Shown here piece by piece: positions 11,568 to 42,466 of a DNA stretch of 43,076 bases. The number at the start of each line of letters is the position of its first letter. Positions within the stretch are counted from its first letter, which is position 1. The notes beneath the pieces were generated by a model. It saw only the letters and a list, made by a program, of their open reading frames with translations. It made no database searches and was not told the DNA's origin. A program made the position numbers and the translations under genes. Source of the stretch: Bacteroidales bacterium (GTDB lineage Bacteria > Bacteroidota > Bacteroidia > Bacteroidales > Paludibacteraceae); NCBI GenBank assembly GCA_021371875.1, contig JAJFVH010000039.1, positions 1-43,076 of the forward strand. Direction: 5' to 3'.

Positions 11568-11639
11568 TAGTCCATAGGGGAGTCGAACCCCTCTTTCCAG
11601 GATGAAAACCTGGCGTCCTAACCGATAGACGAATGGACC
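11568..11639 (-). tRNA. tRNA-Glu (anticodon TTC)
   Basis: The 72-base cloverleaf has acceptor GGTCCAT with its return arm ATGGACT, D arm with GGTTA, anticodon arm CCAGG-TTTTCAT-CCTGG giving TTC, and T arm GGGG-TTCGACT-CCCC. No 3' CCA is encoded, so CCA must be added enzymatically. It is the first gene of the transcript that continues into rpsT. Confidence 0.97.
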
Positions 11640-20252: not shown

Positions 20253-21539
20253 TTAATTTTTCTTCTCTAACTGTTTCTGAATCTTTTTAATTGCAGTTTC
20301 AATTGATTTTTCAGGTTCAATCACATTGAACTCGCCCCAGAAATCAGGATCGGAGAAACCGCTGGCTGCATCGCTTACGATGACTGAAGGGCGCAAACGA
20401 TCTTTTCTTTGAGGTTTTCCATCGTCGGCTTTTTCCCAATCGGTAACAGCCATTTCGATGGTAGAAAAATAAGTGGTATTAAATAGTTTTCTTTTCCAGT
20501 TAATGCGTAGCCCGAGTTCGATTCGGCCGTAACCGTAATACCATTTTCCATCTTTTTCCAGATAGTCAATCCGATAATTGGCTTCAACAGGATAAACCCT
20601 GGCATTCAGCGGTTTTTTTATAATAAACATCCGGCTCGAAGCTTCCTTATCTTCAATATTCAGTTTGAAAACAGCGCTTTTCAAAGCCAGTGTTTGTGCA
20701 TCGATATACAGTTTTCCATAATAGAGCGGTTCAATATAATTCTTATTCTGAATAAAATCAACCACATAAATCAACCGGTTATCCATACGCGTTGAATGAT
20801 CGAAACGGAACTCGTAGTTTTTCATCATATCGTCAGTAAAAATCATATCGGGATGTTTCATTAAGTCGAGATACAATGTGTTGAACGGACCTCCCATTAA
20901 TTTAAAAACCAGTGTATCCAGTTTGGAATAATCGGTTCTTTTGCGGGCTTTGTACATCTTCACCACATCTGACTTGTATGAAGTGTACGACTGTTTATAA
21001 ATATCAACAACAGCCTCCGACAGAGACGCATAAGATTTGTTCTTTTTTATGGTTTCGCGGTAAAAAGCCGTCATTTGCATTTCTTCAACAGAATAGTTTT
21101 GGGCTTTTTTCTCCATCATAGCCTGCACAAGCGACTCGGCATCTTTCGAGATAACACTTACTTCGGGCAATTCAACGGCGATAGGTTCTAATTCAATCCG
21201 GTTTTTTTCATGTTTTAAATCAGACAATAAAATCGTCCGGTTTTTATAACCCATAAAACGAACAGAGAGCTTTCCATTCGTAACGGTATCGGAAATCTTG
21301 ATAGAAAACTCACCCTCGCTATTGGAAACAGTGGAGATATTGGTTCCGATCAGCAAAATATTGGTGAAAGGCAAAGGCCTTCCTGTTAGTTTATCGGTAA
21401 CAAACCCTTTGTATTCGATGTAAGAATCAGGTTTGTCGGCAACAGATGCTTGGAGTTGCGCGTCTGAACCTATAAATGTGAACAACACGACAAGAAAATA
21501 AGTCGGAAACTTTAGTTTGAATGGGGCGGAAAGTTTCAT
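20253..21539 (-). CDS. Carboxypeptidase-regulatory-like surface protein (DUF5686-like)
   Basis: This exported protein has 428 residues and a hydrophobic signal (about 12-32). A CarboxypepD_reg-like beta domain follows (about 42-115: FVTDKLTGRPLPFTNI, SNSEGEFSIKI). A longer beta-rich region has KLYIDAQTLALKSAVFKL and YRIDYLEKDGKWYYGYGR. Such proteins are common in Bacteroidota and are thought to reside in the periplasm or outer membrane; no enzymatic role is known to me. There is no plug or TonB barrel. It is the first gene of a pair with addA, which is an odd coupling given their different cellular compartments. Confidence 0.8.
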   Translation of the reverse strand: MKLSAPFKLKFPTYFLVVLFTFIGSDAQLQASVADKPDSYIEYKGFVTDKLTGRPLPFTNILLIGTNISTVSNSEGEFSIKISDTVTNGKLSVRFMGYKNRTILLSDLKHEKNRIELEPIAVELPEVSVISKDAESLVQAMMEKKAQNYSVEEMQMTAFYRETIKKNKSYASLSEAVVDIYKQSYTSYKSDVVKMYKARKRTDYSKLDTLVFKLMGGPFNTLYLDLMKHPDMIFTDDMMKNYEFRFDHSTRMDNRLIYVVDFIQNKNYIEPLYYGKLYIDAQTLALKSAVFKLNIEDKEASSRMFIIKKPLNARVYPVEANYRIDYLEKDGKWYYGYGRIELGLRINWKRKLFNTTYFSTIEMAVTDWEKADDGKPQRKDRLRPSVIVSDAASGFSDPDFWGEFNVIEPEKSIETAIKKIQKQLEKKN

Positions 21540-26108: not shown

Positions 26109-27377
26109 TTACAAATCAAAACCAATATCTCTTCTGAAATATTTTTTATCGAAATTAATCAATTGTGCATTTTCAAATGACTGAGCCAACGCTTCTTCTT
26201 TTGAATTTCCATAAGAGCTAACTGCTATTACACGTCCGCCATTGGTAACAATTTTTCCATCTTTCGATGTTGTTCCTGCATGAAAAACAATACTGTTTTC
26301 CACTTTATCGAGGCCGCTGATTTCCTTGCCTTTTTCGTAATTCTCAGGGTAACCGCCCGAGACCAACATAACCGTAACGGCGGTACGCTCGTCAAACTCA
26401 ACCGTTTTTTCGTTTAAATTTCCGTTGGCTACGCCTTCGAGTAAATCCACCAAATCCGATTTCAGGCGAAGCATCACCACTTCGGTTTCAGGGTCGCCCA
26501 TGCGTGCGTTGTATTCAATGGTATAAGGTTCGCCGGTTACCTTTATCAGTCCGAAAAAAATAAAACCTTTGTAAATGATTCCTTCGCTGTAAAGCCCTTC
26601 CACGGTAGGTCTGATGATGCGCTCTTCCACTTTTTGCATGAAATCTGCGTTGGCAAACGGGACAGGAGAAACAGCTCCCATGCCGCCGGTGTTCAGTCCT
26701 TTATCGCTTTCGCCAATACGTTTGTAATCTTTGGCTTCGGGAAGAATTTTGTAGTTTCTGCCATCGGTAATCACAAAAACCGAACATTCAATTCCCGAGA
26801 GGAATTCTTCAATCACCACGGTTTTACTCGCTGCTCCAAATTTTCCATCGAGCATCGATTTTAATTCAGTTATAGTTTCATTTAAATCGTTCAGAATTAA
26901 AACGCCTTTTCCTGCCGCCAAACCATCGGCTTTCAGCACGTAAGGAGCCTGAAGATTCTTCAAAAATTCGATGCCTTCTTCAATATTTCCGGAGGTGACA
27001 CTTAAATAACCTGCAGTCGGGATATGGTGACGGAACATAAATTGTTTCGAAAAGTCCTTACTGCCTTCGAGTTGTGCACCCATTTTATCAGGCCCGACTA
27101 CCGGAATATTCTTGATACGTTCATCCTCAGCAAAAAAATCGACAACGCCTTTGACCAAAGGATCTTCGGGCCCAACCAAAACTAAGTCAATTCCGTTTTC
27201 GAGAACAGCCTCTTTCAATGCCGGAAAATTATCGGCAGCAATAGGCAGGTTAGTTCCTAAAGTTGAGGTTCCCGGATTTCCGGGAGCGATAAAAAGCTGG
27301 TTGAGTTTCGGGCTTTGGGCTATTTTCCAAGCCAGTGCATGTTCGCGTCCGCCTGAGCCGAGGAGAAGTATATTCAT
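26109..27377 (-). CDS. purD: Phosphoribosylamine--glycine ligase
   Basis: This second enzyme of purine synthesis joins glycine to phosphoribosylamine with ATP. The 423-residue ATP-grasp protein has [16 protein letters not shown] at the N-terminus, the central [17 protein letters not shown] loop, [12 protein letters not shown] metal site and [16 protein letters not shown]-terminal motif. ATG 27377 begins the conserved glycine-rich strand; the ten-codon extension further upstream contains no conserved residues. A full consensus promoter lies at 27405-27435. It is the promoter-proximal gene of the run through thiL. Confidence 0.96.
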
Positions 27378-27404
27378 TGTACAACAAGGATTTGTTTTGT
27401 GATG

Positions 27405-27435
27405 CAAAAGTAGCTTTTTTTTAGCTTTTTACAAA
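27405..27435 (-). promoter_or_regulatory. Promoter of purD
   Basis: Minus strand TTTG (27432-27435), 19 bases, TACTTTTG (27405-27412). The -33 box starts just beyond the terminator of the candidate small RNA, so the two units are packed end to end. Confidence 0.8.
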
Positions 27436-27436
27436 A

Positions 27437-27470
27437 TAAAAAAGCCATCCGAATTCCTCCGGACAGCCTT
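27437..27470 (-). terminator. Terminator of the candidate small RNA
   Basis: On the minus strand AGGCTGTCCG and CGGATGGCTT pair (with wobble pairs) around a GAGGAATT loop, followed by six Ts. Confidence 0.8.
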
Positions 27471-27579
27471 GAACATATATTGAGTTGAAATTATAGACCT
27501 ACCCTTTATAAAACGCGAAAGGTAGTAACGCCTTACTACCAATCTTTGTTAACCTTAAATCTAATACTATGAAAAAATC
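27438..27579 (-). ncRNA. Candidate small RNA with alternative hairpins
   Basis: A full minus-strand promoter (27586-27616) precedes and an intrinsic terminator (27437-27470) ends a region of about 142 bases with no convincing gene. Within the RNA, GGTAGTAA/TTACTACC (27521-27540) makes an 8-bp hairpin. The same CTACC strand can instead pair with GGGTAG further along (27499-27525), so the two folds exclude each other. The opposite strand holds a 23-codon frame (27570-27641) that I regard as chance. I cannot match it to a named RNA family with confidence. Confidence 0.6.
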
Positions 27580-27585
27580 ACGAGG

Positions 27586-27616
27586 CAAAGATAAAGCGTT
27601 TTTTATACACTTGCAA
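27586..27616 (-). promoter_or_regulatory. Promoter of the candidate small RNA
   Basis: Minus strand TTG (27614-27616), 20 bases, TATCTTTG (27586-27593). It lies about 95 bases beyond the GH28 gene's stop. Confidence 0.7.
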
Positions 27617-27711
27617 GAGTTTTCGAAAATATTTGTGTGAAAAATGTGTTTTATAACATATTTTTATATTTTGACATTAGATTTATTGTGTTTATTAACT
27701 TTTTTGATTGT

Positions 27712-29091
27712 TTAATGACCATACGAAGGCATGGTTTTTATCACACCTCCAATATTGACATCACTCATAACGATATTTTCCGCATTGTTAAAACTTATAC
27801 CAACTGCCGCCGAATGTATCATAACATTGGAGAAGTAAATGTCGTGAACCTTTTTGGCAGGGAATCCCTGAATGACCAATCCTGCATTGGTTGCTTTGTT
27901 ACAATACAAACTGTCTACATACACGCGTTGAATATCGGTTTCGAAACCTTTGCCTTCGCCATGGTAAAACGAAGTTATATAAAAAACATCCTCCACCTCA
28001 TCAAAAGTAACGTTATTCACATAAATATCTGAAATAAAACCGCCCCGGTCAGGATTTGACTTCAAATATATTCCGCGTTTACAATATCCTCCGAAGGTGC
28101 AGTTCTCGACAAACACATTGCGCACTCCGGCCGACATTTCGCTACCGATAACCACCGCATGTAAGCCTTTAAACCTGCAATTGCGAATGATAATATTTTC
28201 AGTTGTGATGGCTGTTTTGCGTCCTTCGTGGTCGCGTCCGGCTTTGATAGCCACATTGTCGTCACCATTGTCGAAATCAACGTCTTCAATCAAAATATTT
28301 TTGGAATATTCAGGGTCAACGCCATCGTTATTGATGTTTTTTGCATTAAAACTGATGCCCCGCACAGTTGCATTTTCTGATTTTAATAAATGAATGCACC
28401 AAAAGGGGGAATTTGTGATATGAACGTCTTCGATCAATATGTTTTTGCATTCGAAGAATTGTATTAAATGTGGTCGCAGGTAACTTCCTTCTCCAAAAAT
28501 ACGTTTTTCAAACGGCACATTTTCATGATTCATTTCGCGACTTTTCATTTGTGCCGGTTCTTGCCATCCTTTCCACTTGCTGAATGTTTCGGCGGCGTTC
28601 CCATCAATCATTCCTTCGCCCGTGATTGACACATTTTCCAACCGGTAACCGTAAATCAGCGGACTGTAATTGTATAAAAATGTTCCTTCCCAGCTTGTGA
28701 ATACGAGCGGTAAATAGTCCTTGGGATTAGAACTAAACTTTAAACGTGCACCTTTTTGTAGTTCGATGCAAACATTACTTGCTAAATGTATGGGACCCTG
28801 AATAAAGTAAATACCCGGAGGAACAATTATTTTTAATCCTTTTTTGCTTTTACTAAGGCTCAGTGCTTTGTCAAAGGCAGATTTACAATTAGTTACCGAG
28901 TCACATGCCGCTCCAAATGCGGTAATAACCACTGAGTCAACTGGTGGAGCGGGCGGTACAATATTTTTTAATACGGCATCCCGTTTGGCGGTTCTCTCAT
29001 TTGGATTCGAAAAACCGGTACCCGAAATTACGCTTACAGCGAGAAGAAAGTACGCCGTGAGTTGGCGGAACTTATGAAATGTTGTTATCAT
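27712..29091 (-). CDS. Secreted GH28 polygalacturonase-like glycosidase
   Basis: This right-handed beta-helix enzyme acts on pectin-type galacturonans by inverting hydrolysis. The 459-residue protein has a signal peptide (about 1-28) and a Pro-rich linker. GH28 catalytic motifs follow in order: NNDGVDPEYSKN, NGDDNVAIKAG, HAVVIGSEMSAG, and RGIYLKSNPDRGG with the substrate-binding Lys. The exact substrate (polygalacturonate, rhamnogalacturonan or oligomers) is open. No SusC/SusD pair or other carbohydrate-active genes are nearby, so this is not part of a polysaccharide-utilisation locus visible here. Confidence 0.9.
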   Translation of the reverse strand: MITTFHKFRQLTAYFLLAVSVISGTGFSNPNERTAKRDAVLKNIVPPAPPVDSVVITAFGAACDSVTNCKSAFDKALSLSKSKKGLKIIVPPGIYFIQGPIHLASNVCIELQKGARLKFSSNPKDYLPLVFTSWEGTFLYNYSPLIYGYRLENVSITGEGMIDGNAAETFSKWKGWQEPAQMKSREMNHENVPFEKRIFGEGSYLRPHLIQFFECKNILIEDVHITNSPFWCIHLLKSENATVRGISFNAKNINNDGVDPEYSKNILIEDVDFDNGDDNVAIKAGRDHEGRKTAITTENIIIRNCRFKGLHAVVIGSEMSAGVRNVFVENCTFGGYCKRGIYLKSNPDRGGFISDIYVNNVTFDEVEDVFYITSFYHGEGKGFETDIQRVYVDSLYCNKATNAGLVIQGFPAKKVHDIYFSNVMIHSAAVGISFNNAENIVMSDVNIGGVIKTMPSYGH

Positions 29092-42214: not shown

Positions 42215-42285
42215 TGTCTCATGGTGTAATGGTAGCACTGCAGTTTTTGGTTCTGCCTGTCGAAGTTCGAATCTTCGTGAGACAA
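42215..42285 (+). tRNA. tRNA-Gln (anticodon TTG)
   Basis: The 71-base cloverleaf has acceptor TGTCTCA/TGAGACA with discriminator A, D arm GTAATGGTAGC, anticodon loop TTTTGGT giving TTG, and T arm CGAAG-TTCGAAT-CTTCG. No CCA is encoded. Confidence 0.96.
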
Positions 42286-42395: not shown

Positions 42396-42466
42396 TGTCT
42401 TATGGTGTAATGGTAGCACTGCAGTTTCTGGATCTGCCTGTCTAGGTTCGAATCCTAGTAAGACAA
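42396..42466 (+). tRNA. tRNA-Gln (anticodon CTG)
   Basis: The 71-base cloverleaf has acceptor TGTCTTA/TAAGACA with discriminator A, anticodon loop TTCTGGA giving CTG, and T arm CTAGG-TTCGAAT-CCTAG. It is closely similar to the upstream tRNA-Gln, and no CCA is encoded. Confidence 0.96.

Follow-up and report, generated by a model that had tools for sequence, protein, structure and literature searches.

The window analysed here, a 43,076-nt stretch of DNA from a member of the Paludibacteraceae, carries on its minus strand a gene for a GH28-family glycoside hydrolase (27712–29091; Pfam Glyco_hydro_28) upstream of purD, which encodes phosphoribosylamine-glycine ligase (26109–27377; Pfam GARS_N, GARS_A and GARS_C) and whose ATG at 27377 lies 30 nt inside a mechanically delimited ORF beginning at 27407. 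Between the two genes, no ORF of at least 60 aa overlaps positions 27437–27616 on either strand. An earlier note had placed a free-standing small RNA (sRNA) gene there, with its own promoter and terminator on one strand, and both elements were recovered on the minus strand, at 27586–27616 and 27438–27470, respectively. Judged by its sequence, the locus is a real sRNA gene.

The putative sRNA promoter, read by eye, consists of a TTG (27614–27616), a 20-nt gap and TATCTTTG (27586–27593); TTG and TAnnTTTG do not vary when the window is aligned with three orthologs linked to purD. We take these boxes to be of a Bacteroidota promoter type, which is reported for FopS genes (PMC11697453); a scan of 27200–27800 for E. 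coli-type sigma-70 promoters returned one site (shuffle mean 1.9), located away from them. At the other end of the sRNA gene, a strong intrinsic terminator of 13 bp followed by a T-run (27438–27470, or +112 to +144 of the sRNA) emerged from the terminator scan, the fold and the subtype comparison. Scanning 27200–27800 yielded two terminator sites (shuffle mean 0.4), namely this one and the plus-strand reading of hairpin 1; hairpin 1 with its interrupted U-run was absent from the minus-strand sites. As the earlier note had observed, a separate candidate purD promoter (27405–27436; TTTTG at 27432–27436 and TACTTTTG at 27405–27412, likewise read by eye) starts directly after the terminator, and the same boxes recur in two orthologous loci (L021 and L035).

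The likely 5′ end is G27581, position 1 of the Rfam model RF04319, two bases earlier than the 27579 of the earlier note. The long form of the sRNA would thus span 27438–27581 (~144 nt), and a short form would stop near 27507. Its first 33 nt (27549–27581) form an R1/R1′-type seed region, which is near-invariant in 29 sequences, has its core exactly preserved in the window copy and is, by the duplex test described below, antisense to SusC-type start regions. Hairpin 1 (27521–27540; GGTAGTAA-GGCG-TTACTACC), the equivalent of the FopS terminator hairpin, is followed by the interrupted U-run UUUCGCGUUUUAUA (27507–27520), again read by eye. The 145-nt sequence folds better than its shuffled versions (z −2.57; 3 of 200 shuffles equally good). 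In this full-length fold, part of the seed (about nt 19–26) pairs with nt 81–88; in a fold of nt 1–85, nt 14–37 are unpaired.

Scanning the window against the 4227 families of Rfam 15 assigned positions 27507–27581 (minus strand) to RF04319 (BTncRNA_FopS) at 60 bits, with a gathering score of 56, confirming that the sRNA before purD belongs to the already described FopS family, which the earlier note had overlooked. Of the families named there, 6S RNA and Bacteroidales-1, neither reached its gathering score anywhere in the window, and a search of 27300–27760 at E ≤ 1 returned neither. Below their cut-offs, GibS (RF04182) aligned over its positions 1–142 at 44.8 bits (gathering score 115), BTnc231 (RF04180) reached 27.7 bits (gathering score 80.4) and Ref1C 25.5 bits (gathering score 90); on its score, membership of the GibS family was rejected. 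The genome of origin (2.97 Mb, 88% complete) contains 15 RF04319 matches at E ≤ 10, three of which are over the cut-off and represent paralogs; the two copies other than that in the window adjoin genes other than purD. Elsewhere in the window, Rfam identified three tRNA genes (11568–11639, 42215–42285 and 42396–42466) and, at the left end (63–139), a group II intron match (RF00029; 47 bits, gathering score 40).

The earlier note suspected conservation among Bacteroidales, and this suspicion is borne out. An order-wide search of 295 genomes, including the own one, returned RF04319 matches at E ≤ 1e-4 in 62, with 56 over the cut-off; its stricter filters lost some weak matches. For 40 genomes searched as relatives, again with the own one, the corresponding figures are 34 at E ≤ 0.1 and 26 over the cut-off; all 23 genomes of the same genus have at least one copy over the cut-off. 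Bacteroides ihuae is the sole match among 14 control genomes, both at E ≤ 0.1 and at E ≤ 1e-4; loosening the threshold to E ≤ 10 raises the number to eight, one of them over the cut-off. FopS was described from human gut Bacteroides and is reported as highly conserved within the Bacteroidaceae (PMC11697453). By sequence, the window copy lies in the Paludibacteraceae, outside the family for which FopS was reported; a partial literature search, covering few subscription journals, found no treatment of FopS in Paludibacter.

Mobile elements carry related sequences as well. Phage and plasmid collections returned 3 and 19 records, respectively, with partial matches, none spanning 80% of the 204-nt query. 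The exact 19-nt core occurs in 42 IMG/VR stretches, some without the full sRNA layout. Five IMG/VR contigs (L219, L224, L227, L228 and L244) and the Bacteroides xylanisolvens phage BX-TP2 (L261) carry FopS-like copies that combine a promoter box with seed, hairpin and U-run, in agreement with a phage copy already remarked on in the FopS study (PMC11697453).

To what extent the sRNA accompanies purD can be read from 32 purD loci with at least 76% identity (L016–L045, L051 and L092), 19 of them labelled Paludibacter or Paludibacteraceae and 13 bearing broader names, including one Porphyromonas and one Prevotellaceae. An exact core lies on the same strand no more than 500 nt ahead of the purD match in nine (L016, L018, L021, L025, L026, L031, L032, L033 and L035). 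For 21 of the remaining 23, the upstream sequence suffices to see that there is no near core; L039 offers only 193 nt of it. L029 and L036, with a core about 2.2 kb upstream, were counted as lacking a near copy; L051 has a core on the opposite strand at a distance of 4.2 kb, and L035 has a second copy. In 48 other purD loci, the exact core was absent from the stretches examined. The window, L021, L025 and L035 align across promoter, seed, hairpin 1, spacer and second terminator, with poor conservation of the spacer between hairpin 1 and that terminator.

Gathering copies by the 19-nt core with up to three mismatches in the collected loci gave 83 distinct sequences, which fall into class A (n = 20; CATGG leader), class B (n = 61; CATAG or AATAG leader) and two others. 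By its hairpin loop, class B divides into B1 (n = 29; GCG loop followed by UUUCGCG), which includes the window copy, and B2 (n = 32), a mixed group with CCGTGA or GTCGTGA loops in which four sequences are class A-like or of another family. Class A was present in 19 of the 23 same-genus genomes; the own genome, which is incomplete, yielded none. Class A promoters (L096–L115) bear the palindrome ATGTTGTACAACAT ahead of the –7 box, without deviation in 16 of the 20 copies, which suggests a dedicated transcription factor. By eye, several class A copies stand just before a gene whose product starts MN..KRLYTSS..ALPKAGKTIWWLLKI. Two or three class B copies occur in tandem in L132, L133, L134 and L138, spaced 285–408 bp apart. 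The subtype comparison offers a way to test how an sRNA family with many copies lengthens and perhaps acquires further targets.

The own genome also encodes a second FopS-like multicopy family, class C (C52:15406–15488 and C52:15013–15094, L172; minus strand). Its conserved 5′ part ends in UUUUUCAUAGUUAAGGUUUAGGUUAA and, by eye, is followed by a variable hairpin with compensating arms and a U-run, with promoter boxes in addition. Class C scores 28.7–31 bits against RF04319 (gathering score 56); 14 aligned copies from the genus have a mean column identity of 99%. Matches at E ≤ 0.001 occur in 35 of 61 Paludibacteraceae genomes, up to nine per genome, some only 20–45 nt long. Searching the own genome for its complement with up to three mismatches returned none but itself, and its pairing is weaker than that of the window seed at 20 of 21 SusC starts. 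This family may be of more interest than the purD-linked copy.

Read on the opposite strand, the seed resembles a start region (TTAACCTTAAATCTAATACTATGAAAAAATCA). In Bacteroides thetaiotaomicron, FopS RNAs block the translation of a SusC homolog at the start codon, counteracted by the RRM protein RbpB, a mechanism supported by EMSA, in-line probing, in-vitro translation and mutants (PMC11697453); in gut Bacteroides, the family holds down sugar-importer genes. The own genome contains 21 SusC genes over the TIGR04056 cut-off and a single RRM gene of 81 aa. Duplexes were computed between start regions (–40 to +21, with the first in-frame ATG taken, unverified, as the start) and the first 42 nt of the sRNA. 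The 21 SusC starts averaged −17.29 kcal/mol, whereas the mean of 91 other ORF starts from loci of the same genome was −12.42 kcal/mol (Mann–Whitney p = 8.5e-6); of 300 dinucleotide-shuffled seeds, not one reached the SusC mean. However, a subset of 60 of these 91 controls, examined in the same manner, likewise paired better with the real seed than with shuffled ones (−12.81 vs. −10.35, reached by 0 of 200), so some of the complementarity is a general property of start regions of this kind. The best 20 of the 112 starts comprise nine SusC and 11 non-SusC genes; of the ORFs tested in the window, 20253–21539 (minus strand) is the strongest predicted target, with −22.3 kcal/mol between start region and seed. 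In the own genome, the only 26-nt complements with up to three mismatches lie within the three sRNA genes, so that any pairing with mRNAs has to be imperfect. By analogy with B. thetaiotaomicron (PMC11697453), the window sRNA would most likely block the translation of SusC-like transporters.

Two rival readings fared poorly. The first is a riboswitch-like element or a conformational switch, the latter suspected in the earlier note from two hairpins competing for the same CTACC strand. Both hairpins can be drawn in the window, where two GGTAG segments are able to pair with CTACC, yet only hairpin 1 is conserved. In an alignment of the B1 copies (29 rows, 28 distinct), its pairs are formed in 99.6% of cells (25–68% in slid registers), two of them change on both sides (A-U to U-A and G-C; C-G to A-U), and its covariation score of 0.180, against 0.043 in shuffles, was reached by 0 of 500, with two measures less affected by kinship unexceptional (matched by 87 of 500 shuffles for double-change pairs and by 75 of 500 for pair types). 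The rival CTACC:GGTAG pairing is formed in 63.1% of cells, with a covariation (0.044 vs. 0.040) that 208 of 500 shuffles reach. Disregarding register, rival stems average 3.97 bp compared to 3.75 bp in shuffled downstream sequence; they can reach at least 5 bp in seven of 29 copies, and the compensatory change at pair 45–58 of hairpin 1 (L025, L116 and L129) has no matching change downstream. As hairpin 1 is conserved with compensatory changes and its rival is not, the switch is unsupported; we rejected it on the counts for the named pairs and the register-free test and, given additionally that a separate purD promoter follows the terminator, regard it as very improbable. Control in cis of purD or the GH28 gene, by an attenuator, a leader or a 3′ UTR-derived RNA, would fit the recurrence of copies close to purD described above, yet common descent of the locus explains this recurrence. 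Moreover, the sRNA has its own promoter and terminator, with the purD promoter downstream, its two other copies in the genome adjoin other genes, and seed pairing is weak at the starts of purD (−12.3 kcal/mol) and the GH28 gene (−10.1 kcal/mol), for which both were rejected as base-pairing targets. We therefore consider regulation of the neighbours improbable, though less remote than the switch.

A further point is the length of the RNA. In the FopS family, the hairpin directly after the seed acts, together with its U-run, as the terminator. About seven T follow the stem directly in copies from B. finegoldii (L258), Prevotella (L259) and a phage (L261); in a P. distasonis copy (L260) they do not. 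Within the genus, the run is interrupted: it reads TTTCTTG or CTTCTTG in 18 of the 20 class A sequences, TTTCGTC in 17 of the 32 B2 sequences and TTTCGCG in all 29 B1 copies. A second terminator, defined as −8 kcal/mol or better with a T-run at +92 to +182, was present in 17 of 29 B1, five of 32 B2 and none of 20 class A copies (Fisher p: B1 vs. B2, 6e-4; B1 vs. A, 9e-6; B2 vs. A, 0.14; a guide only, as the copies are related and some, e.g. L148, are cut by contig ends). In 13 of the 17 B1 cases the stem ends at +129 to +149, and terminator sequences differ from locus to locus. In the window and the three orthologs, all 52 cells of the second terminator are paired, but 254 of 500 shuffles reach its covariation score, so this counts as conservation only. 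The long form of ~144 nt is plausible for B1, and the sRNA before purD may thus have a longer tail than usual for FopS. One tentative scenario, to which we assign somewhat less than even chances, is that a CGCG break in the U-run of a Paludibacter FopS lineage turned the terminator hairpin into an internal one, with read-through to a second, locus-specific terminator; the resulting two-hairpin RNAs, mostly about 130–150 nt long, would share a seed, have private 3′ parts and represent a form between FopS and GibS. That the long form is functional in the manner of GibS, the part after hairpin 1 giving it targets unlike those of the short FopS RNAs, would suit the full-length alignment to the GibS model, the frequency and placement of the second terminator in B1 and its retention in the window and the three orthologs. 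Against this, the GibS score is far below the gathering score and may owe much to the common 5′ end alone, the spacer is poorly conserved, terminator sequences vary between loci, and 12 of the 29 B1 copies show no such terminator; we regard a GibS-like function as less likely than not.

Taken as a whole, the locus is best explained, with high probability in our judgement, as a FopS-family gene of a Paludibacter-type bacterium, encoding a trans-acting sRNA that blocks the translation of mRNAs for SusC-like and related outer-membrane proteins. We infer that the sRNA is transcribed from its own vegetative promoter, and that its mostly unstructured 5′ part would pair with the start regions of these mRNAs to block translation, while hairpin 1 would cap the seed module and an RbpB-type RRM protein would probably modulate the sRNA. 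Some transcripts would end at hairpin 1, with a length of about 75 nt; the second terminator would halt the remainder completely, at about 144 nt, and might also keep sRNA transcription out of purD.

Among known systems, BTnc231 is matched weakly over its full length. GibS (PMC7366714) has in common with the window copy an R1-type 5′ end, a length near 142 nt and a hairpin plus distal terminator; its promoter is reported as motif PM2, whereas the window copy has the common promoter boxes, and the window sequence scores well under the GibS threshold. Compared to FopS of B. thetaiotaomicron (RF04319; PMC11697453), the window copy carries the leader GUGAUUUUUU, has its U-run after hairpin 1 broken by CGCG, is located before purD and possesses a second terminator allowing an RNA of ~144 nt; the genome holds three copies over the cut-off vs. 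14 in B. thetaiotaomicron. The GGCG hairpin loop recurs in the B. finegoldii copy. Common to the window copy and FopS of B. thetaiotaomicron are the 5′ seed UUUUUCAUAGUAUUAGAUUUAAGGUUAA, several copies per genome, the promoter type, a hairpin directly after the seed and SusC start regions as favoured targets, which here are predicted. The FopS circuit known from gut Bacteroides would thereby extend to the Paludibacteraceae, with seed and SusC complementarity intact.
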